This document shows, piece by piece, positions 46,921-58,703 of a DNA stretch of 64,000 bases. The notes below the pieces were generated by a model. That model ran no database searches, was not told where the DNA came from, and was given only the letters and a program-made list of their open reading frames with translations. Location of the stretch: contig NZ_QRHA01000006.1 in assembly GCF_003367475.1 (NCBI RefSeq), positions 248,001 to 312,000 on the forward strand, read 5' to 3'. Origin of the DNA: Alteromonas aestuariivivens. Its GTDB lineage: Bacteria > Pseudomonadota > Gammaproteobacteria > Enterobacterales > Alteromonadaceae. How positions within the stretch are numbered: position 1 is the stretch's first letter; every line of letters begins with the position of its first letter. A program made the translations under genes and the position numbers.

Positions 46921-46997
46921 AGGGGTGTAGTTCGAATTGGTAGAACAGCGGTCTCCAAAACCGATGGTTGGGGGTTCGAGTCCCTCCACCCCTGCCA
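46921..46997 (+). tRNA. tRNA-Trp (anticodon CCA)
   Basis: The cloverleaf is complete. The acceptor stem AGGGGTG/CACCCCT, anticodon loop CTCCAAA (anticodon at 46955-46957), T-arm GGGGGTTCGAGTCCCTC and an encoded CCA end at 46997 are all present. The D-loop has one base more than in E. coli. It is directly upstream of secE, as in many gammaproteobacteria, but without tufB in front. Confidence 0.97.
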
Positions 46998-47058: not shown

Positions 47059-47436
47059 ATGAGCGAAAAAACGGAAAATACGTCCAATCCGTTGGACATG
47101 TTGAAATGGTTGATTGTGTTTGCCCTGCTGGCGGGCCTGATCTCCGCAAATTATATGTTCGGTGAAGTTTCGGTACTGTATCGAGCCCTGGCTGCCGTTG
47201 CCGTTGTGGTGATTGCTGGTTTTATCGCCGCCACTACTGAGAAGGGTAGTGCTTTTCTGACGTTCGCCAAAGAATCCCGTCTGGAAGTGCGCAAGGTCAT
47301 TTGGCCAACCCGCCAGGAAGCCAATCAGACTACCTTGATTGTTATGGTTGCAACCGTCTTCATGGCACTGGTCCTTTGGGGGCTGGATGGCATTATCGTG
47401 CGTTTGGTCGGCTTTATTACCGGAATAGGAGCATAA
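47059..47436 (+). CDS. secE: Preprotein translocase subunit SecE
   Basis: The 125-residue protein of the SecYEG channel has three membrane helices: two in the N-terminal half and the conserved one (TTLIVMVATVFMALVLWGLDGIIV) after the amphipathic ESRLEVRKVIWPTRQE helix. The three-helix form is typical of gammaproteobacteria. An AGGAT site precedes the ATG, and nusG begins 3 bases after its stop. Confidence 0.96.
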   Translation: MSEKTENTSNPLDMLKWLIVFALLAGLISANYMFGEVSVLYRALAAVAVVVIAGFIAATTEKGSAFLTFAKESRLEVRKVIWPTRQEANQTTLIVMVATVFMALVLWGLDGIIVRLVGFITGIGA

Positions 47437-47439
47437 GCG

Positions 47440-47994
47440 ATGTCTGAAGAAACCAAGCAAGCCAAGAAAAGATGGTATGTGGTTCAGGCCTATTCACAGT
47501 ATGAGTCGCGGGTTAAGAAAACCCTGCTTGAATACATCAAAATGCATGGCATGGAAGATTACTTTGGTCAGGTTCTGGTACCTACCGAAGAAGTGGTTGA
47601 GATGCGTGCCGGCCAGAAGCGTAAATCTGAGCGTAAGTTTTACCCAGGCTACGTACTGGTTGAAATGGAAATGAATGAAGATTCGTGGCATTTGGTGAAA
47701 AGCGTACCTCGTGTACTGGGCTTCATTGGTGGTACTTCAGATCGCCCAATGCCTATCTCCCAGCGTGAGGCAGATGCGATCCTCAACCGTCTGGAAGAGT
47801 CGGTTGACAAACCGAAGCCAAAAACCTTGTTCGAACCAGGCGAAGTGGTTCGGGTTATCGATGGCCCGTTTGCCGATTTCAATGGTGTAGTTGAAGAAGT
47901 TGACTACGAAAAGAGCCGCGTAAAGGTATCGGTACTCATTTTCGGACGTTCTACTCCGGTAGATCTGGAATTCGGTCAGGTCGAGAAAGGCTAA
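47440..47994 (+). CDS. nusG: Transcription elongation and termination factor NusG
   Basis: The 184-residue protein has the NGN domain ([36 protein letters not shown]) and the KOW domain ([35 protein letters not shown]). It binds RNA polymerase and links to Rho and the ribosome. It is coupled to secE and ends at a strong intrinsic terminator. In most relatives rplK follows at once; here a ten-kilobase insert follows. Confidence 0.97.
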
Positions 47995-48016
47995 CCGATT
48001 TCCTGGTTATCATTTC

Positions 48017-48047
48017 AAAAAAAAAGCGGCTCAATGCCGCTTTTTTT
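48017..48047 (+). terminator. Strong intrinsic terminator after nusG
   Basis: An AAAAAGCGGC/GCCGCTTTTT stem is flanked by long A- and T-runs. It isolates the secE-nusG message from the insert. Confidence 0.92.
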
Positions 48048-48200
48048 GTGCCTGCGAAGCCAGAACAACGATGTGTTAGTTTACCGAGAAACCAGACATC
48101 ATAACGATCACGGTACATTTTCATAATCTTCCGAATTTGTAGTGCGGCGGTATATCACATTTAATGCAGAGTAACGTTAGATCATCAGAGTGAGGATTGT

Positions 48201-49898
48201 ATGACTTTGCGCTATCTCGGCTTGTTGGTGGCTGGATTGTCATTGTGCGGATGCTCGCAGAATATTCAGAGCACCGATAATTCTGACCTAGTGGCGATTC
48301 AGCTCAATCAGGTGGGCTTTTCCCCTGAACTGCCTAAACTGGCAGTAATCGAAAATTACCATTCGGTTGATTACTCTGTTGTTGATTTGGAGAATGGCGT
48401 GCAGGTATTGTCCGGTAGCGTTCCGAGCGGAACTATTTGGTCACCTGCCGGGGTTCCCGCCAATGTTGTTGATCTCAGCAGCATTACAAGGGCAGGAAAA
48501 TATCGAATATCTGTGGCTAATGGCAAAGCTTTCAGAGACTTCGATGTTTCAGGTACCGCATTTGCTACCCTGCATGATGCCGCAATCAAAGCGTATTATT
48601 ACAATCGTGCCGGTTCAGCCCTGCTTCAAGAGTACGCCGGTATATGGGCGCGTGAGTCTGGCCATAAGGATGAGCATGTACTTGTGCACAGATCGGCTGC
48701 ATCGGATTTTCGTCCGTCAGGAACCGTATTGTCGGCGCCTAAGGGCTGGTACGATGCCGGTGATTACAACAAGTACGTAGTGAATTCGGGGATCAGTACC
48801 TATACGCTGATGCGGACCTACTTGGACTTTCAGCCGTTTTATCAGAATCGGCAGTGGAATATCCCGGAATCCGGCAATGGGCGTGCAGACATTCTTGATG
48901 AGATAGCCTGGAACCTGGACTGGATGCATTCCATGCAGGACGCTGACGGCGGGGTTTATCATAAACTGACGACATTACAATTCTCGGGTGCTGAGATGCC
49001 CGCGCAGGCGACGGAAGCCCGTTATGTAGTGCAAAAAAGTACCGCGGCGACGCTCAACTTTGCCGCGGTGTTTGCGATGGCGAGTCGCTTGTACCCGGAA
49101 CATGCCCAGGCTTATCTGGCATCTGCACAAATGGCGTGGCAGTGGGCCAATCGCTTCCCGGATACAGAGTTTCGAAACCCTGAAGACGTTGCCACCGGGG
49201 AGTACGGTGATCAGACATTTTCCGATGAATTTGGCTGGGCGGCTGCCGAATTGTATCTTGCAACTCAGGACATCCGCTATCTGAACCGGTTTTTGAGTTA
49301 TAACCTCACCCTGTCAACGCCTTCCTGGTTCGATACAGCCTCGCTTGCCTACATTTCATTGTTGAGTGACGGGCATGAACTGTTATCCACCACGATATAT
49401 GATCAACTTTCCCGTGCTCTGATGGAGTACGCAGCAGACGCAGCGCGTGAGTCAGATTCGTCATCTTTTGCCGTTGCCATGCAGGAGCGAGATTTTGTCT
49501 GGGGCAGTAATAGTGTGGCGCTCAACAAAGCGATGCTGGTCTGGAAGGCCTGGCAACTAAGTGGAATCGGGCAATACAGGCAGGTCTCTCTTGGTCTGCT
49601 CGATTACATACTGGGCCGCAACCCGCTAGGCATGAGCTTTGTCACTGGGTTTGGTCAGATCTCACCTATGAAAATACACCACCGCCCGTCAGAGGCTGAC
49701 GGAATCCTGGCACCGGTACCCGGTTTTGTTGTTGGTGGCCCCCAAAACGGACATCAGGACGGATGTCATTACCGCAGTGATTTGCCAGCGGTTTCCTATC
49801 TGGACGACTGGTGTTCCTACTCAACCAACGAAGTCACAATTAACTGGAATGCTCCGCTGGTGTACATGCTCGCTGCGGTGATGGCTGGATCAGACTGA
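48201..49898 (+). CDS. GH9 family glycoside hydrolase, cellulase-like lipoprotein
   Basis: The 565-residue protein probably cuts beta-1,4-glucans. The lipobox LCGC (Cys18) predicts a lipoprotein facing the periplasm or cell surface. An N-terminal Ig-like domain (about 30-118, starting IQLNQVGFSPELPKLAVI) leads to the GH9 (alpha/alpha)6 barrel. Asp185 and Asp188 in GWYDAGDYNKYV are the base pair, KIHHRPS lies late in the chain, and Glu544 in TNEVTINWNAPLVY is the catalytic acid. All key residues are present. No cellulose-binding module is seen. The substrate could be cellulose, mixed-linkage glucan or oligosaccharides. Confidence 0.9.
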   Translation: MTLRYLGLLVAGLSLCGCSQNIQSTDNSDLVAIQLNQVGFSPELPKLAVIENYHSVDYSVVDLENGVQVLSGSVPSGTIWSPAGVPANVVDLSSITRAGKYRISVANGKAFRDFDVSGTAFATLHDAAIKAYYYNRAGSALLQEYAGIWARESGHKDEHVLVHRSAASDFRPSGTVLSAPKGWYDAGDYNKYVVNSGISTYTLMRTYLDFQPFYQNRQWNIPESGNGRADILDEIAWNLDWMHSMQDADGGVYHKLTTLQFSGAEMPAQATEARYVVQKSTAATLNFAAVFAMASRLYPEHAQAYLASAQMAWQWANRFPDTEFRNPEDVATGEYGDQTFSDEFGWAAAELYLATQDIRYLNRFLSYNLTLSTPSWFDTASLAYISLLSDGHELLSTTIYDQLSRALMEYAADAARESDSSSFAVAMQERDFVWGSNSVALNKAMLVWKAWQLSGIGQYRQVSLGLLDYILGRNPLGMSFVTGFGQISPMKIHHRPSEADGILAPVPGFVVGGPQNGHQDGCHYRSDLPAVSYLDDWCSYSTNEVTINWNAPLVYMLAAVMAGSD

Positions 49899-49903
49899 TC
49901 CAG
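49885..49903. promoter_or_regulatory. Perfect inverted repeat overlapping the GH9 stop codon
   Basis: CTGGATCAG and CTGATCCAG flank a central A (9+1+9). It may fold as a 7-bp hairpin in RNA or act as a DNA operator; no T-run follows, so termination would be weak. Its CTGATCC half also occurs at the hemH promoter. Confidence 0.4.
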
Positions 49904-50324
49904 GGATCGGTCCCAAATATCGGATGACGTTTTTACACTGGGTGGATGAATGCTTTGTGCACATAACCGGTGGGTAGCATGGCGCATGACAGGGGGATCT
50001 CGCAGCGGGATGGAGCGCGGTTATGAAATTTAAGCCTCGCGTGACGATTTGTTAAGTCTATGTATTTATTTAATTTTTTTCTTTTCAAAGGCGATGGTAA
50101 TAATATTGTTAATTAAATGTTTCGTATTATCGTTTCTCTGTTGTGATATTTACTGAGTGAATTGATAGTCCATTCATTCTCTTACAAACTTAAGAAAAAC
50201 AAGCAAGTAAACGCGCATGTCAGGTGGTGTGTCAGTCGTTCCCGAATGATGTGCAATCACTCAACCAGCAGAAAGGTTCATAGTCCATGATGGATAGGGG
50301 CCTCTGCTCATTGGAGTCGTGATG
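49904..50324. other. Intergenic region upstream of the TonB-dependent receptor
   Basis: The gap of about 420 bases contains an AT-rich core (about 50060-50180) with T-runs and TTAATTAA, likely the promoter region of the receptor-halogenase genes. A 10-codon frame at 50023-50055 has a ribosome-site-like GGAG but no other support. Confidence 0.45.
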
Positions 50325-53300
50325 ATGGTGTATCGGAAACCGGTGTCTAAGCCAAGCTGCCTTATTAATTTCAGGAAATCGCTTACTGCGATTGCGATGA
50401 TGTCAGCGTTTGGCAGCGTGCATGCTCAACAGGCCGATTCAACAACAGATAATGCAGCGCAGGACGATGAATCTCAGCTTGAGGTTATTGAGGTAAGTGG
50501 TACGCGGGGCAATTTGTTAAATGCTCAAAATCTCAAACGAAATTCCGATACGGTGCTGGATAGCATTACCGCTTCTGATATTGGTGTTTTGCCTGATCGC
50601 AGTGTGCTAGAGGCCATTCAGCGGCTTCCAGGGATATCAATAGAGCGTTTTGCTGGTCCTGACGATCCGGACCACTTTAGTGTTGAGGGCAGCGGTGCCA
50701 TTATCCGGGGTATGACTCAGACCCGCAGTGAATTTAATGGGCGTGACTCGTTTACCGCCAACAGTGGCCGGGGATTGTCGTTTCAGGATGTTTCTCCGGA
50801 ATTGATGGGTGGAGTGGACGTATACAAAAACCAGACTGCCGATATGATCGAGGGGGGAATTGGTGGTACGGTGAGTTTGCGTACCCGCAAGCCCTTCGAC
50901 TCTCAAGGCCGGGTGATAGCCATTGGCGGGGACTATTCTTATGGTGATGTTGCCGAAAAGGGCAGCCCCACATTTTCGGCCCTGTACAGTGATCGTTGGG
51001 ATCTCGACTCCGCAGGTGAGTTTGGATTGCTGGTTAATTATGCCGATTCACAGCTGTATGGCGAATCTCACGGTATTCAATCCGATGCATTTGTAACCAT
51101 GTACGCAAGAGATTTGGCCGGTGCAGAGTCTTTCGTTGGTGAAAATGGTGAAGGCATTGTGTGGATGCCGAATGCGTCCAACCTGCTGAAAAAGTTCGAC
51201 GATCGGGAGCGCAAGGGCTTTGCGTCTGCGTTGCAGTGGGAAAGTGAAGACGAAACCCTGCTTGGTACGCTGCAATACATTCGTTCTGATGCCAAGCTGT
51301 CATGGCATGAACAGGCGGTGAAGTATCAGGGCGGTTATTACAACATTAATGAAAGGCGCACCCGGCCGCTGGATGGTACATCATTTACGTTTGATGACCG
51401 TGGCCTGTTTGAGTCCGGAACTCTGACTCAGGGAGTGGATGGGTGGCGGGCCGGTGATGGCAACGCAGATCGCGTAATCCGTTCTTGGGAGACGGGTGGC
51501 CGGCCCCAGTTTGGTTACCCCACACAATTTGACAGCCGGGTTAAGGACACCGAAAGCCTGGTGGAAGACCTGTCGTTCAATTTGCGCTGGCTTGCTTCGG
51601 AAAATCTCGAACTGACTGCGGATTTTCAGTATATCGACGCAGAAACTTCCGATGATGATGTGGTGGTGCACACCGCAGCTTTTGCAGGGCAGACTTATGA
51701 CGTAACGGGTTCAACACCGGACATGATGCTGCTCGAACCCTATTTCGGCTACCGGGACGCCAACCCTGAAGTGTACGCAGGCGGAGTATATCCTGGCTTT
51801 ACGGATGATCCGGCCGGAGACAGCAACTACTTTCAGGACCGTACATCGTATTTTCTCAGAAGTGCAATGGATCATTACGAGCGTTCTGAAGGAGAGTCGA
51901 AGGCATTTCGTCTGGATGGCAAATACTTCCTCGGGGATGACAGTCTGTTTACGTCCCTGCAAACAGGTGTGCGCTATGCCAAGCGGGAACAGACGGTGCG
52001 ATCCACTGACTGGAACTGGGGTTCACTGGGGCCGGAATTTTCCGGTTCAACCCCTGCTGCCTGGCTCGACACCTTGCCTGATGACTACCAGAGCAACTTT
52101 GAGATGGTGGACTGGTCAGATTTCCACGGTGGTGGAGTGGCACACATTCCGGGCGATCAAACCATACATGCAACGGAAGCGTTTGTCCGTTCAGTTATTA
52201 ATGGAAATATGCCCTACAAAACCGATGCGGGTGACTGGGTACCCTATCCGAATCGAACAAACGTAACGCTGGACTCGCAGTACGGGATCTTCGCACCGGG
52301 GGAAATCAATGACACGACTGAAGTTAATAAAGCCATTTATCTGCGCCTGAATTTTGAAGGGGGCGAGGATCTGTTCTTCTCGGGTAATGTTGGGTTGCGT
52401 TACGTAAAACTGACCCGCGAAGCCAATGGCTTTATAAACTACCCTGACCTTGTGCCCGCGCCTGAGTTTGCTGCGCCCGGTGATCTTGCCAATCAGCAAC
52501 TGAATCCGGAAATTGTTACGGCTTGGGTAAATGATCAGGTAGCGCAGGGTAACTACGCCAGTTTTGAAGATGCCTTGCAGGCAGAAGAAAACCGCTGGAT
52601 AGGTGAGCCGCTGAATTATTTGCCTGTAGAGGACAGGGCATTCGGAGATGAAACCGCCGAGCGCCAGGAAGCGAAAACGGATTTCAGTATGCTGTTGCCC
52701 AGCTTTAACATCAAAGTGGAGTTGACCGACGAGCTCATTGGTCGATTTGCTTTTTCCAAAGCGGTGGCCATGCCGGACATTGGGGATGTGCGCAACAGGG
52801 TAATGCTGGGTAATGATGACGTACAGGCCATCAGGCCGACCAACCCCGACCCTGGTACACAGCCAGATCCGGAAGACACATTGATTCAGGGCGCCTATGT
52901 TCCTGCATGGACAGGGGAAGGTGGCAACCCTTACCTGGAGCCAATGGAATCCTGGCAATATGACGTGGCCCTGGAATGGTATTTTGCGGAGGTGGGGCAA
53001 CTGAGTGTGACACTGTTCCATAAAGACCTGAGAAACTACTTTATTCAGGGGGCTACGCCGCAAAGCTTTACCAATCCAACCACAGGCCAGACACAAACGG
53101 CATTGGTGAACACTACAACCAATGGTGGAAAGGGTAAAATGGATGGCGTGGAGTTTGCTTACCAGCAATTTTTCGATACGTTACCCGCGCCCTGGGATGG
53201 CTTGGGGGTGCAGGCGACATTTACCTATATTGATGCCAGTGGGGTCCCTAACAACCAGATTGATGCCGAGGATGAATCCTGGGCAGGAGATTCCGCCACC

Positions 53301-53672
53301 GACCCTGGCATCCGGGTCAGTTTGGACTCAATACCCCTGGAAGGTCAGTCCAAGCGGACGTTTAACCTTGTCGGTATGTACGAAAAAAATGGCTGGAGTG
53401 CCAGGCTGGCTTATAATTGGCGCTCCCGTTACCTGCTCACCACCCGTGACGTGATATCCAAGGCGCCGCTTTGGTATGATGATCACGGCCAGTTAGACGG
53501 TTCCTTGTTCTACAACATAAACGACAACTTTACTGTTGGATTACAGGGAACAAACCTGACCAATTCCCAGTCGGAGACCATCATGATGCTGAACAATGAC
53601 GGGTTGGAAGCGGGCCGCTCCTGGTTTGTCTCAGATCGGCGGATAGCGTTGGTGGCGCGGGCCAATTTTTAG
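50325..53672 (+). CDS. TonB-dependent outer-membrane receptor
   Basis: The protein of about 1115 residues starts at one of three adjacent start codons (GTG 50319, ATG 50322, ATG 50325); the last is 8 bases from a GGAG site. A signal peptide ends ..GSVHAQQ. A TonB-box-like LEVIEVSGTRGN is followed by the plug domain (about 55-190: SDIGVLPDRSVLEAIQRLPGISIERF). The 22-strand barrel ends in an aromatic ..ALVARANF. The form is that of large Alteromonadales/Xanthomonadales receptors linked with carbohydrate uptake. Position between a GH9 enzyme and halogenases suggests uptake of a glucan oligomer or an aromatic compound. Confidence 0.93.
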   Translation: MVYRKPVSKPSCLINFRKSLTAIAMMSAFGSVHAQQADSTTDNAAQDDESQLEVIEVSGTRGNLLNAQNLKRNSDTVLDSITASDIGVLPDRSVLEAIQRLPGISIERFAGPDDPDHFSVEGSGAIIRGMTQTRSEFNGRDSFTANSGRGLSFQDVSPELMGGVDVYKNQTADMIEGGIGGTVSLRTRKPFDSQGRVIAIGGDYSYGDVAEKGSPTFSALYSDRWDLDSAGEFGLLVNYADSQLYGESHGIQSDAFVTMYARDLAGAESFVGENGEGIVWMPNASNLLKKFDDRERKGFASALQWESEDETLLGTLQYIRSDAKLSWHEQAVKYQGGYYNINERRTRPLDGTSFTFDDRGLFESGTLTQGVDGWRAGDGNADRVIRSWETGGRPQFGYPTQFDSRVKDTESLVEDLSFNLRWLASENLELTADFQYIDAETSDDDVVVHTAAFAGQTYDVTGSTPDMMLLEPYFGYRDANPEVYAGGVYPGFTDDPAGDSNYFQDRTSYFLRSAMDHYERSEGESKAFRLDGKYFLGDDSLFTSLQTGVRYAKREQTVRSTDWNWGSLGPEFSGSTPAAWLDTLPDDYQSNFEMVDWSDFHGGGVAHIPGDQTIHATEAFVRSVINGNMPYKTDAGDWVPYPNRTNVTLDSQYGIFAPGEINDTTEVNKAIYLRLNFEGGEDLFFSGNVGLRYVKLTREANGFINYPDLVPAPEFAAPGDLANQQLNPEIVTAWVNDQVAQGNYASFEDALQAEENRWIGEPLNYLPVEDRAFGDETAERQEAKTDFSMLLPSFNIKVELTDELIGRFAFSKAVAMPDIGDVRNRVMLGNDDVQAIRPTNPDPGTQPDPEDTLIQGAYVPAWTGEGGNPYLEPMESWQYDVALEWYFAEVGQLSVTLFHKDLRNYFIQGATPQSFTNPTTGQTQTALVNTTTNGGKGKMDGVEFAYQQFFDTLPAPWDGLGVQATFTYIDASGVPNNQIDAEDESWAGDSATDPGIRVSLDSIPLEGQSKRTFNLVGMYEKNGWSARLAYNWRSRYLLTTRDVISKAPLWYDDHGQLDGSLFYNINDNFTVGLQGTNLTNSQSETIMMLNNDGLEAGRSWFVSDRRIALVARANF

Positions 53673-53711
53673 ATCGCTGAAGTACCTTGGCGCGTATCCC
53701 CAGGTTTCTGC

Positions 53712-55250
53712 ATGGTGAAGCCGGTTGATATAGTGATTTTAGGTGGCGGCACTGCCGGTTGGATGAGTGCCGCTGCACTGTCGCGTCTGTTGCCGGCAAG
53801 CCGCTACCGGATCACGCTGGTGAGTGCACCTGAACTTCAAACCGTGGGCGTCGGAGAAGCCACCATTCCTCACATTCGATATTTCAACCAAACGTTAGGA
53901 ATTGATGAAAATGAGTTTATCCGTTCCGTCGGTGCGACATACAAACTCGCCATTCGGTTCAAAGGTTGGGGGTACGAGGCGAGCGACTATTGTCACGGCT
54001 TTGGGTATAGCGGTGAACGGATAAACGATATTGAATTCCACCACTATTTTTTGCGGGCTTTTGGCCGTTCATCCGAAGTGGACTACGATCGTTTTTGTCT
54101 GGCATCTCTCGCTGCCAGGGCGCATCGGTTTGAATATCCAAAACAGGGTGATTCAATGGCAGGGCGATACGGCTACGCCTTCCATCTGGACGCTACCCGT
54201 TATGCTGATTATCTGCGTGAGTTCAGCCTGGCCAACGGTGTAAAGCATATCCTGGGCAAGGTAGAAAGCGTGCAGTTGTCACTGTCAGGGGACATTTGCA
54301 GTCTGCGGTTATTGAACGGTGAAATTATTGAGGGTGACTGGTTTCTCGATTGCAGCGGGTTTAGTGCACGGCTCATAGAACAGGAACTCAACAGCGGTTA
54401 TGAAAGCTGGCAGCAATGGTTACCGTGTGATCGGGCCGTTGCCGGCGCTTCAGGAGCGATGGATTCACCTCCAACTTACACCCTGTCACAAACCCATTGT
54501 GCGGGGTGGCGTTGGCAGATCCCGCTGCAGCACCGCACGGGTAACGGTGTGGTCTATGCGAGTCATGAAATGTCCGATGATGAGGCGGCGGTGTTATTGA
54601 ACCGCTCTGTTGAGGGTATTGATGAATCCCGGCTTAAGGTACTGAGTTTCCTGCCGGGGAAACGTCGCAAAAGCTGGCAGCGAAATTGTGTTGCCATCGG
54701 CCTTTCGAGTGGGTTTCTGGAGCCACTGGAGTCGACTAGCTTGTATCTGGTGCAGGTTGCGATTGAGAAATTTATTGAATATTTGCCGGCAGATAGGAAT
54801 TGTCACGCAGAGCGGCAGGCATTTAACCAGTTTATCGATATCGAATACGAGCGCATTCGCGATTTCCTGATCCTGCATTACCATCAAAACGGGCTCAATT
54901 CTTCGTTTTGGCGTTATTGCGCGACTATGGCTCTGCCCGATTCGCTAAACCTGCGATTGCAGCTTTATGACGAAACCGGTCATTTCAGTGGCTATCGGCA
55001 GGGTTTATTTATGCCGGTTTCCTGGGTTACGGTTGCTCTGGGGCAGGGGCGTTATCCGCAGGGTATTGACGGCAGGATGCAAAAGTGGCCCAAGCACCAG
55101 ATTGCGCAGGAACTGACGAGTTACCAGGCAAAACTCGTCAGCCTGGTCGGCCAAATGTCTGCCCATAAGTATGCCCTAGGGCGCGCTGGAGAAGAGGGGC
55201 TCAGATATCCTGAGGCATCCCCAAGTCTGTATGGATTTGTATCCGGATGA
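53712..55250 (+). CDS. Flavin-dependent tryptophan halogenase family protein, copy 1
   Basis: The 512-residue protein has every residue expected for an active halogenase. The FAD glycines are GGGTAG (11-16) and the catalytic lysine is Lys78 in ATYKLAIRF. The WxWxIP signature is WRWQIP (266-271), and the catalytic glutamate is Glu340 in LEPLESTS. Halogenases of this class use FADH2, oxygen and chloride or bromide to form hypohalous acid that the lysine delivers to an indole or other aromatic. The true substrate is unknown. A flavin reductase is not adjacent. Its last four bases overlap the next gene's start. Confidence 0.92.
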   Translation: MVKPVDIVILGGGTAGWMSAAALSRLLPASRYRITLVSAPELQTVGVGEATIPHIRYFNQTLGIDENEFIRSVGATYKLAIRFKGWGYEASDYCHGFGYSGERINDIEFHHYFLRAFGRSSEVDYDRFCLASLAARAHRFEYPKQGDSMAGRYGYAFHLDATRYADYLREFSLANGVKHILGKVESVQLSLSGDICSLRLLNGEIIEGDWFLDCSGFSARLIEQELNSGYESWQQWLPCDRAVAGASGAMDSPPTYTLSQTHCAGWRWQIPLQHRTGNGVVYASHEMSDDEAAVLLNRSVEGIDESRLKVLSFLPGKRRKSWQRNCVAIGLSSGFLEPLESTSLYLVQVAIEKFIEYLPADRNCHAERQAFNQFIDIEYERIRDFLILHYHQNGLNSSFWRYCATMALPDSLNLRLQLYDETGHFSGYRQGLFMPVSWVTVALGQGRYPQGIDGRMQKWPKHQIAQELTSYQAKLVSLVGQMSAHKYALGRAGEEGLRYPEASPSLYGFVSG

Positions 55251-56563
55251 ATCATAGGGTTATTGGTGTGGTAGGGCAGGGATTGATGTTCCAGATTGCG
55301 AGCAGTTGGCTTAGCCGGACACTGTCACCCTTTGGCGCTAAAATTATTGGCTTTGAAACCCCCGTTAAAGATGGCCCGGTGGTCGCGGAATGGGGGCCGG
55401 GTCTTCACGATTTTTGCGCTGTTACAGGATTATCATTGGCTGGGCTAATGCGGGAATGTCAGGGAAACTTCTGCTGGGGACTGCGATGTAACTGGTTCAA
55501 ACGCGGCGCTCTGCTGCCCTATGGTAGTTATGGATTGAAAAGCCGGCAAAAGGAATTTGAACACGGCATGTTGCGAATGTTTTCCCGGTTTCCAGAGCGC
55601 AATCCGGACGAATTCAGTCTGGCGGGCAGTGCCGCTTGTTTGGGGCGCTTTGCATTACCAATGGCGCAGTGGTCCGGATGGGCGCACGCTATGCGCAGTG
55701 GTGTAACCCTCGAAGCCGCTCAACTGGCAAGCCTGCTGCACACATTTAATCAGCAACTGGGTGTGGTGTACCTGCCTGTGTCCGATGATTCGATCCCGGC
55801 GGAAGCACATCCGCAGGTGGACTTTTGGCTTCATATTGCGTCTGTCGCCGGTGGCAGCAAAAGTGCTGAAAGCATCGAGGAAACGCTGCTCCCAGAAAGC
55901 TGTTGTGGTTATTCAGAGCTTCATTCTCAGGCCGGTAAAACCCTGAAGCTGGCTCATACCCGCCGGCAAACGTTGCAGTATGGCTTGCGCCAGGGGGCGC
56001 AACATCAGTCGGGCCAGGGGCGTTACTTCAGGCAGTTTAAACGCTTTTCGGCCAGCTGGACCGGTAATCAATTGCGACTGGAATTACCGTTATTGACGAG
56101 TTTAACCTCACCTTTTGATACTTTAATAGACTGGCTGCAGAAATTGCTGGAATTGTGGCCTGCACAATTTGCAAGCCATGCTCTGGCAATGAGTTATCGA
56201 CAATACGCAGATACATACATTGCAGAAGCTGAGGATTTTGAGCAGACACTGTTCGGAAAACAATCGTTGCAGCGACAACTCTTTTTGCGTTGCGGTCGGT
56301 TGCTGCAGCGAGAAACCGGAGCCGTCAGTGATGCCCAGTGGTTTGCACTGCTGATGGGGATGGGGGATTTGCCGCAGCGCAGCAGTGTGGTACTGGAAGC
56401 GACTGATGATGAATCCCTGTTTCCAGTAATGGAAGAAATTGCCAGGCGAATCAGGTGCGTGGTTTCAGGAATGCCTGAACACAGGGAATTTGTATCCCGG
56501 TTTTGCAACGCTGGCGTACCGTTGAACATTCACGCTTTAGGTAACGCGAGTCAGGGGGCCTGA
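55247..56563 (+). CDS. Degenerate halogenase-like protein, probable pseudoenzyme
   Basis: The 438-residue protein aligns by eye with the flanking halogenases: RVIGVVGQGLMFQIASSWLSR matches their Rossmann start, and VVAEWGPGLHDF their GVGEATIP. But the FAD GGGxxG is VGQGLM, the catalytic Lys is replaced by Cys76 (GNFCWGLR against ATYKLAIR), and WxWxIP and EPLES are not found. The reading frame is open and in perfect coupling (ATGA overlap upstream, TGATG overlap downstream). So it is kept as a protein rather than being a decaying pseudogene. A role as partner or scaffold for the active copies is inferred. Confidence 0.6.
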   Translation: MNHRVIGVVGQGLMFQIASSWLSRTLSPFGAKIIGFETPVKDGPVVAEWGPGLHDFCAVTGLSLAGLMRECQGNFCWGLRCNWFKRGALLPYGSYGLKSRQKEFEHGMLRMFSRFPERNPDEFSLAGSAACLGRFALPMAQWSGWAHAMRSGVTLEAAQLASLLHTFNQQLGVVYLPVSDDSIPAEAHPQVDFWLHIASVAGGSKSAESIEETLLPESCCGYSELHSQAGKTLKLAHTRRQTLQYGLRQGAQHQSGQGRYFRQFKRFSASWTGNQLRLELPLLTSLTSPFDTLIDWLQKLLELWPAQFASHALAMSYRQYADTYIAEAEDFEQTLFGKQSLQRQLFLRCGRLLQRETGAVSDAQWFALLMGMGDLPQRSSVVLEATDDESLFPVMEEIARRIRCVVSGMPEHREFVSRFCNAGVPLNIHALGNASQGA

Positions 56564-58068
56564 TGACACAGCAACTTCGCAAAATTATTATCCTTGGGGG
56601 CGGCTCGGCGGGTTGGATGACCGCAGCAGCCCTCGGCAAAATTCTGAAAAATCAATTCTGTGAAATACAGCTTATTGAGTCGCAGGACATTGGAACCGTT
56701 GGAGTAGGTGAAGCCACTATTCCACAAATCCTGCTTTACAACGACCTTATTGGCCTGGATGAAAATGAATTTTTACGCCGAACCCAGGGCACCTTCAAGC
56801 TCGGCATTCAGTTTACCGACTGGGACGAAATTGGCAGCCGCTACTACCACGCATTTGGCGAAGTAGGAAAAAACATGGAAGGTGTGCAGTTTTACCATTA
56901 CTGGATGAAAATGCGCGCCCAGGGTAAGGCTGCTCCGCTGGACGAATACACGCTTTCTTCGCTTGCGTGCAATGAAAAGCGCTTTATGCGCTCAGTCGAT
57001 GCCGGCAATTCACCGCTGTCGAACATTGCCTATGCCTTTCATTTTGACGCAGGCCTGTATGCCCTCTATCTGAGGGAATTGTCGGAAAAGTGCGGCGTGG
57101 TCCGAACTGAAGGAAAAGTGACCGAAGTTCAACAGCATCCCGACGGTTCAATCAAGTCGCTGCGGCTGGCCGATGGCAGTGTGCACGAGGCGGACTTCTT
57201 TATTGATTGCAGCGGGTTTCGGGCAGTGCTGATAGAGCAGACGCTGCAAACGGGGTTTGATGACTGGCGCCACTGGTTACCTTGTGACCGGGCTTTAACC
57301 GTTGCCAGCACCCTGAACGAAGAGCCCTGGCCATTTACCCGCGCAGCTGCGCAAAAGGCAGGGTGGCAGTGGCGAATTCCTTTACAACACCGCATTGGAA
57401 ATGGCCACGTTTATTGCAGCGAGTTTATGGATGAGGCCGAAGCCAGACAAATCTTGCTGTCAAACCTTGACGGAAAACCGCTCAACGAACCCCGTTTGAT
57501 CCGGTTTGTAACTGGCAAGCGAAAAAAGTTCTGGAATAAAAACTGCCTGGCTATCGGTCTGTCCAGCGGTTTTATGGAACCGCTGGAATCAACCAGTCTA
57601 CACCTGGTTCAGATGGCCATTTCCAAGTTCTTCTCGTTCTTTCCAACCCGCCAACCGGTGGGGGCCGACATTGACGAGTTTAACCGTCAGATGACGTTTG
57701 AATTCGAGCGCATCCGGGATTTTCTGATCCTTCACTACCATGTTACCCAGCGCAGTGATGCACCATTCTGGGAATACTGCCGAACCATGCCGGTACCCGA
57801 CTCTCTGACTCAGAAGATTGAACAGTTTAAGGCGAGCGGCCGGGTATTCCGCTTCAACAACGAAATGTTTAGCGATTTAAGCTGGTTTGAAGTTATGTAC
57901 GGTCAGGGCCTCAGGCCTGAGAGTTTTCATGGTCTGACCGGCTTGTTTGGGGAAGACGAATTGGCACGGCGGCTGGACGGAATCCGGAATGTAGTGCGTC
58001 GTTCAGCTGATTATATGCCTTCCCATCAGGCCTTTATCAATGAGTATTGCAAAGCCCCTGTCGGCTAG
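56563..58068 (+). CDS. Flavin-dependent tryptophan halogenase family protein, copy 2
   Basis: The 501-residue protein has GGGSAG (12-17), Lys79 in GTFKLGIQF, WQWRIP (268-273) and Glu342 in MEPLESTS. By eye it is clearly related to the 53712 gene yet well diverged. An ERIRDFLILHYH segment is shared by both copies. Its ATG overlaps the previous stop by one base, so the trio is one translational unit. The next gene is rplK, 206 bases on, and no intrinsic terminator is seen in between. It could halogenate a different substrate or position than copy 1. Confidence 0.92.
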   Translation: MTQQLRKIIILGGGSAGWMTAAALGKILKNQFCEIQLIESQDIGTVGVGEATIPQILLYNDLIGLDENEFLRRTQGTFKLGIQFTDWDEIGSRYYHAFGEVGKNMEGVQFYHYWMKMRAQGKAAPLDEYTLSSLACNEKRFMRSVDAGNSPLSNIAYAFHFDAGLYALYLRELSEKCGVVRTEGKVTEVQQHPDGSIKSLRLADGSVHEADFFIDCSGFRAVLIEQTLQTGFDDWRHWLPCDRALTVASTLNEEPWPFTRAAAQKAGWQWRIPLQHRIGNGHVYCSEFMDEAEARQILLSNLDGKPLNEPRLIRFVTGKRKKFWNKNCLAIGLSSGFMEPLESTSLHLVQMAISKFFSFFPTRQPVGADIDEFNRQMTFEFERIRDFLILHYHVTQRSDAPFWEYCRTMPVPDSLTQKIEQFKASGRVFRFNNEMFSDLSWFEVMYGQGLRPESFHGLTGLFGEDELARRLDGIRNVVRRSADYMPSHQAFINEYCKAPVG

Positions 58069-58156: not shown

Positions 58157-58185
58157 TTGCTTCATGTGGTGAATTGTTGTACATT
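58157..58185 (+). promoter_or_regulatory. Promoter of rplK (L11 operon)
   Basis: TTGCTT (58157-58162) and TACATT (58180-58185) are 17 bases apart with a GCGCCC discriminator typical of stringently controlled ribosomal promoters. Confidence 0.6.
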
Positions 58186-58206
58186 ACGCGCCCTTTTTAA
58201 CGGAAC

Positions 58207-58255
58207 GGGGAGCCGTTTGAGCAAGTATTCTCAGTACTTGCGAGGCGTTAGACCC
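58207..58255 (+). promoter_or_regulatory. L1 operator-like structure in the rplK leader
   Basis: GGGG-A-GCC (58207-58214) faces GGC-GTTAGA-CCC (58244-58255), an asymmetric internal loop like the L1 binding site of 23S rRNA and the E. coli L11 leader. A GCAAGTA/TACTTGC hairpin (58221-58241) caps it. Repression by L1 is known for the E. coli operon; here it is inferred. Confidence 0.6.
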
Positions 58256-58274
58256 AAACAAGAGAGCATTAAAA

Positions 58275-58703
58275 ATGGCTAAAAAAGTAATTGGCTTGAT
58301 TAAGCTTCAGGTTGCAGCGGGTGCTGCTAACCCAAGTCCACCGGTTGGTCCTGCATTGGGTCAAAAAGGTGTGAACATCATGGAATTCTGTAAGGCTTTC
58401 AACGCAAAAACCGAAAGTCTTGAGAAAGGCGCTCCAGTACCAGTAGAAATTACTGTTTACGAAGACCGTTCTTTTACCTTCGAAACCAAAACGCCTCCTG
58501 CTTCTTACCTGCTGAAAAAAGCTGCGGGTATCAAGAGTGGTTCAGGCCGTCCTAACACTGAAAAAGTGGGTAAAGTGACCCGTGCTCAGTTGGAAGAAAT
58601 TGCCAAGACCAAAGAGCCGGATCTGACTGCTGCTGATCTGGATGCAGCTGTACGCACTATTGCGGGCTCTGCTCGCAGCATGGGCTTGAACGTAGAGGAC
58701 TAA
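58275..58703 (+). CDS. rplK: 50S ribosomal protein L11
   Basis: The 142-residue protein binds the GTPase-associated region of 23S r[38 protein letters not shown] is near-invariant, and [17 protein letters not shown] and GSARSMGL(N/E) follow. It is the first gene of the ribosomal block, with its own promoter, L1-type leader and rplA four bases downstream. Confidence 0.98.

Follow-up and report, generated by a model that had tools for sequence, protein, structure and literature searches.

TonB-dependent xylan loci of Gammaproteobacteria, represented here by the related loci L087-L093 and L099-L117, are the closest described systems to the gene cluster reported below and have in common with it a receptor with a linked glycoside hydrolase. 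The cluster lies in a 64,000-nucleotide stretch of the Alteromonas aestuariivivens genome (the window), in which, flanked by the terminator of nusG and the promoter of rplK, lie genes for a GH9 lipoprotein, a TonB receptor, a halogenase (HalA), a halogenase-like protein (HalLike), and a further halogenase (HalB). Orthologues of its receptor, GH9, and HalB, together with the receptor promoter element, are shared with these xylan loci, but the cluster differs from them in comprising the core only, without an XylR-type gene, GH10, GH43, GH115, or DUF6445, and in being placed inside nusG-rplK.

Among proteins of known structure, HalA and HalB come closest to Xcc4156 (6y1w), BrvH (6frl), and the Pseudoalteromonas enzyme 9luq. 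Unlike these proteins, the window set contains a third, motif-less copy between two predicted halogenases. The gene for BrvH is adjoined by a second halogenase gene, 42.7% identical, according to the report on that enzyme (PMC5945002). The best solved relative of the GH9 protein is BoGH9A (6dht, 395.9 bits), a named xyloglucan-specific endoglucanase bearing an N-terminal Ig-like domain as does the window enzyme, whose own relatives, in contrast, sit in xylan-type loci.

The gene order secE-nusG-rplK-rplA is often taken as fixed, and a review describes this locus as conserved in distant phyla (PMC7819879). Hotspots without mobile elements, as presented by Oliveira et al. 2017 (PMC5635113), resemble the junction considered here in their fixed core flanks, the turnover of their cargo, and the lack of a detected integrase; the present comparison differs in running across genera at one junction.

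Gene content and boundaries of the insert

All features given here lie on the forward strand. The left flank consists of secE (47059-47436), an open reading frame (ORF) named from its position before nusG and from BLAST matches to the secE-position ORFs of related loci, and of nusG (47440-47994; Pfam NusG and KOW), the final core gene ahead of the insert; rplK (58275-58703; Pfam L11 domains) forms the right flank. The initial annotation had placed five same-strand genes between them, and all five ORFs were found there: the GH9 glycoside hydrolase, a predicted lipoprotein (48201-49898; PF00759 288 bits, CelD_N 47.9 bits), the TonB-dependent receptor (50319-53672; a Pfam match and TIGR01782 at 620 bits against a cut-off of 310), HalA (53712-55250; PF04820 513.5 bits), HalLike (55247-56563; a weak PF04820 match of 31.8 bits against a cut-off of 21), and HalB (56563-58068; PF04820 629 bits). 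A correction concerns their spacing: only the receptor, HalA, HalLike, and HalB are packed operon-like, with a 39-nt gap followed by overlaps, and GH9 stands apart, 420 nt separating its end from the receptor start, with the conserved promoter element inside that gap. The receptor is of the TIGR01782 type expected in a TonB-dependent carbohydrate utilisation locus, and GH9, adjoining it upstream, corresponds to the linked glycoside hydrolase of such a locus. Pfam detected no regulator gene, and so no linked sugar-responsive regulator, among the five cluster proteins, and no integrase or insertion sequence family either.

The terminator that had been placed after nusG was substantiated as an intrinsic one with a 12-pair stem (48019-48047). 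The region 48005-48060 has a minimum free energy of -17.8 kcal/mol (z -3.0), with 2 of 200 shuffles equally good; it was not among the results of a simple pattern scan for terminators, and most of the related loci shown likewise carry a hairpin with a T-run 3' of nusG. Ahead of rplK, promoter-like hexamers, TTGCTT at 58157 and, after 17 nt, TACATT at 58180, are followed by a leader (58157-58270 in all), and both align with the equivalent stretch of 13 related loci. This conservation fits the annotated promoter and leader; the epithet "L1-like" was left unconfirmed by Rfam, which at the gathering score gave no leader match and tRNA-Trp only. Neither mark of an integrative island, an integrase or end repeats, was seen; no direct repeat occurs at both insert ends, and inverted-repeat and tandem readings of these ends yielded nothing useful. 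Foreign composition was sought in the cluster genes and none was seen, their codon use and GC3 being those of 29 upstream window genes.

The nusG-rplK junction across the family

A search of 147 genomes with nusG and with rplK gave matches in 138 and 139, respectively, with both genes on one contig in 137 and on two contigs in G003. The gap between them has a median of 230 bp across the 137 genomes, reaching at least 1 kb in 23 of these (13 of 50 genera), at least 2 kb in 16, and 22.3 kb at its maximum. The five gaps within the genus of the window measure 10283, 4770, 902, 512, and 237 bp, that of 4770 bp holding an ABC-transporter set on the opposite strand. Among the 23 genomes with at least 1 kb, only A. 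aestuariivivens carries the five-gene cluster at the junction. The family-wide gaps and conserved flanks support the claim that the insertion falls past the terminator of nusG and ahead of the promoter of rplK. Insertion is probably tolerated here because the upstream essential operon ends in a terminator and the downstream one starts from a promoter of its own.

As the one neighbouring control, compared across the family rather than within species, the 10.8-kb span rplK-rpsL, which itself includes several seams, was measured in 127 genomes, after exclusion of 10 that lacked rpsL or had it on a different contig. Spans at least 900 bases above the median were found in 9/127 genomes for rplK-rpsL, with a largest excess of about 4.1 kb, versus 20/127 of the same genomes for nusG-rplK, so the latter seam stands out even though the control is not empty. 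In one respect the junction resembles a horizontal-transfer hotspot: a single interval between core genes contains differing cargo in numerous genomes (23 of 137, in 13 of 50 genera).

In the remaining 22 genomes whose gap reaches 1 kb, the cargo amounts to 85 ORFs of at least 125 aa, a few of which are antisense or double-counted where fetched pieces overlap. It is mostly genome-specific: 25 of the 85 ORFs belong to families present in two or more genomes, and 4 of these families occur in different genera, the aldo/keto reductase described below being one of them. A Pfam scan of 70 insert proteins from 20 of the 22 genomes returned kinases, transporters, sigma factors, a sulfatase, MdoG, CHAT, and TauE proteins, and others; no integrase was present among them, and a single IS4-type transposase was seen, in the nusG-rplK seam of G012 (L028:1116-2510). 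The sole BLAST match of these inserts to the window cluster was to GH9, in G038 and at 22.7%. Taken together, the nusG-rplK junction is a variable spot in the Alteromonas family and likely a tolerated landing site.

Two recurrent residents were also noted. An aldo/keto reductase occurs in the inserts of four genomes from three genera (L014:1140-1937, L017:12823-13626, L018:2063-2968, and L029:1153-1956) and may have resided in the seam for a long time. Three inserts of the g12 genus (L014, L016, and L023), of 3.3, 14.7, and 22.3 kb, share a UPRT-type gene and an MFS gene, which suggests an older insert around which further cargo accumulated.

Related loci, the promoter element, and the likely substrate

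The initial annotation had raised the question of whether most close relatives carry the cluster at nusG-rplK, which would make it ancestral; 0 of 4 congeners did so. At strict cut-offs (receptor E<=1e-200, HalA 1e-130, GH9 1e-100, HalLike 1e-20), none of the four proteins was found in any of the four congeners, and matches among the 147 genomes came from other genomes outside the genus (receptor 10, HalA 20, GH9 20, and HalLike 2). An insert ancestral to the genus was therefore rejected for the four congeners sampled, of a genus which may hold more species.

Six relatives (G053, G114, G145, G067, G004, and G111) encode a receptor that is 62-77% identical, followed by HalA, a HalLike, HalB, and then DUF6445, away from nusG-rplK. 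Most of the stretches fetched from these six also contain GH10, GH43, GH115, and GH67, plus MFS and mandelate-racemase-type genes. With the exception of L093, the final halogenase of these related loci shares 68-79% identity with HalB. Nineteen further receptor loci were fetched (L099-L117), two of which are again the contigs of G053 (an uncultured Glaciecola) and G111 (Rheinheimera sp. YQF-1). GH9 lies directly upstream of the receptor in 12 of the 19 and beyond GH115 in one; as it does not adjoin the receptor in every locus, GH9 alone is a weak guide to the substrate. HalB stands alone in 11, the trio is complete in 7, and one contig ends after the receptor. DUF6445 follows HalB in 17 of the 19 (L109 and 16 others; also at L087:3154-3858) and is missing from the window cluster. 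The order in Alteromonas-type genomes runs XylR, an FGGY kinase, a xylose-isomerase-like gene, a SASA esterase, GH9, receptor, HalB, and DUF6445; L100 shows this order, continued by GH10 and GH3, its xylose-isomerase-like protein scoring 29.2 bits and thus falling short of the cut-off of 31.1.

Alignment of the receptor upstream regions, the window included, yielded the pattern TGTTKCGN7KTTTN5TTGTGATATTT, which is matched exactly at 50118-50151, upstream of the receptor, with a chance expectation of 0.01 per window. Read from the alignment, a -10-like hexamer, GATAGT (50164-50169), lies 17 nt after TTGTGA (50141-50146) and marks an inferred promoter. The spacing of TTGCG and TTGTG, 21 bp apart, would presumably suit an AraC-type activator. 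The match at 50118-50151 is the sole one of the full pattern in the A. aestuariivivens genome at up to 3 mismatches, and at the same tolerance nine genomes gave one match each in G000, G053, G067, and G114, always upstream of the receptor, and none in the four congeners or in G111. The reversed control pattern gave 5 matches in the same nine genomes versus 4 true ones, so weak genome-wide matches alone prove nothing. Among the 19 related loci, 12 have the element upstream of the receptor with 0-1 mismatch, 7 of these 12 not having been used for the pattern, and two further loci match there with 4-5 mismatches; it is absent from the Rheinheimera-type and Catenovulum loci.

Backbone and side-chain enzymes in one locus, which define a xylan utilisation locus, are present in the relatives and missing here. 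GH10 was found in all seven locus-bearing relatives searched and in neither the A. aestuariivivens genome nor the four congeners, and a relative's GH115 gave no match in the A. aestuariivivens genome. GH43, with 9 matches in A. aestuariivivens as opposed to none in three congeners and a single weak match under the cut-off in the fourth, marks this species as a carbohydrate specialist within its genus by GH43 count. The GH43 matches of its own genome were recorded at L127-L131 (C1, C12, and C31). With no GH10 or GH115 match in the genome, the cluster is to be described as derived from a full xylan locus rather than as one; it forms a core, and its substrate is read from its orthologues. As relatives keep the module among GH10, GH43, GH115/GH67, and XylR-type genes, this gene context points to xylan oligosaccharides as the likely substrate, rather than a glucan or a free aromatic.

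The halogenase trio and the origin of the cluster

The four motifs which we take to characterize these halogenases, GxGxxGW, the active-site Lys, WxWxIP, and EPLEST, are all present in HalA and HalB and, with one-residue variants allowed, in 15 of 15 canonical alignment rows. None of the four is intact in any of 8 HalLike rows (the window protein and 7/7 counterparts), and HalLike was therefore not filed as a halogenase; judged by eye, four further HalLikes, of G114, G145, G067, and G004, and that of G138 show the same picture. With HalLike rows as its only input, a first structural model of HalLike came out poor (pLDDT 50.5), and a second, whose input included 15 canonical halogenases, reached pLDDT 76.0 and matched Xcc4156 (6y1w) with E 1.0e-19, a TM of 0.71 by query length, and 19% identity. 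As the canonical sequences pull the model towards their own fold, this match is supportive rather than independent. Comparison with a set of 5.8 billion proteins returned only HalLike itself, which is uninformative, as scoring covered only 7998 candidates with shared words and HalLike does have relatives at 25-30%. The best reading of HalLike from its sequence is that of a halogenase copy which has degenerated but stayed in place beside the two canonical ones flanking it, putatively as their partner. At four more places in the same genome (L095, L096, L097, and L098), a TonB receptor adjoins a PF04820 halogenase.

The most probable account of these data is that the GH9-receptor-halogenase core of the relatives' xylan-locus module, together with its receptor promoter element, came to lie in nusG-rplK, likely by horizontal transfer, and that it has the predicted role of trimming and importing oligosaccharides derived from xylan. 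The genome-like composition of the cluster speaks against a foreign origin, and the lack of GH10 and GH115, as well as the xyloglucanase name of the GH9 relative, against xylan. The same composition, the promoter element that moved along with the core, and the 9 GH43 and seven further PF04820 matches of the genome (five outside the cluster) would also suit a relocation within one lineage, in which an ancestral full xylan locus elsewhere lost its remainder after its core had moved to nusG-rplK, with no transfer between species. We regard this as rather unlikely, given that the cluster and GH10 are absent from 4/4 congeners and GH43 is wholly absent from three and a weak sub-cut-off match in one, so that much would need to have been lost from the ancestral state, repeatedly. 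Improbable, in turn, is the reading closest to the initial annotation, which had proposed a glucan-linked or aromatic compound: GH9 would cleave beta-glucan and the halogenases would modify an aromatic compound imported by the receptor. Although GH9 is related to a xyloglucan-specific enzyme and PF04820 enzymes with an established substrate act, by name, on indoles or tryptophan, the receptor orthologues at 62-77% identity sit among xylan-type enzymes and GH9 is not invariably beside the receptor; the relatives' gene context, being of xylan type, lends this proposal no support.

An assembly error joining unrelated pieces at nusG-rplK might be suspected in a draft of 35 contigs, yet it is scarcely credible for a locus of uniform composition inside a 321 kb contig of a genome that is 99.83% complete and 0.02% contaminated, all the more as the junction is occupied in many relatives too. 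Equally far-fetched is a tRNA-targeted integrative island that entered via the tRNA-Trp upstream of secE (46921-46997), which was rejected: the insert starts after nusG, two genes off, the five genes and the 70 scanned insert proteins include no integrase, and the window shows neither flanking repeats nor a second tRNA. As integrase and repeats were not seen, recombination between flanking homologous sequences appears the likeliest route, in line with PMC5635113.

The cluster is thus best seen as the core of a xylan-type uptake module, acquired or relocated, that occupies a seam often filled in this family, and its arrival was likely horizontal. GH9 would act on the cell surface or periplasmically, while the receptor would import the oligosaccharide, and a regulator encoded elsewhere would act on the receptor promoter. 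HalA and HalB may be working flavoenzymes whose target is linked to what the receptor imports, for instance an aromatic substituent, and HalLike may be their non-catalytic partner. That the genes form one system, as had been proposed, is suggested indirectly by the synteny of the GH9-receptor-halogenase core in relatives.

Neither the variability of the junction across the family nor the middle protein without an intact halogenase motif had been part of the initial annotation. A speculative and doubtful extension is that HalA-HalLike-HalB form one heteromeric flavoenzyme, the dead copy supporting the two live ones as a partner or scaffold, and that this enzyme alters aromatic side groups on receptor-imported xylan fragments and is carried as a unit via a landing site in the ribosomal-RNA-polymerase gene block; flavin-dependent halogenases would then serve polysaccharide feeding instead of antibiotic making. 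Found in no fewer than seven of the genera-level lineages examined, the motif-less protein flanked by two canonical halogenases next to a sugar receptor offers a handle on the role of receptor-linked "tryptophan halogenases". Should the nusG-rplK seam prove to be a tolerated landing site in this family, comparing the seams of essential operons would reveal what makes sites safe for new genes.
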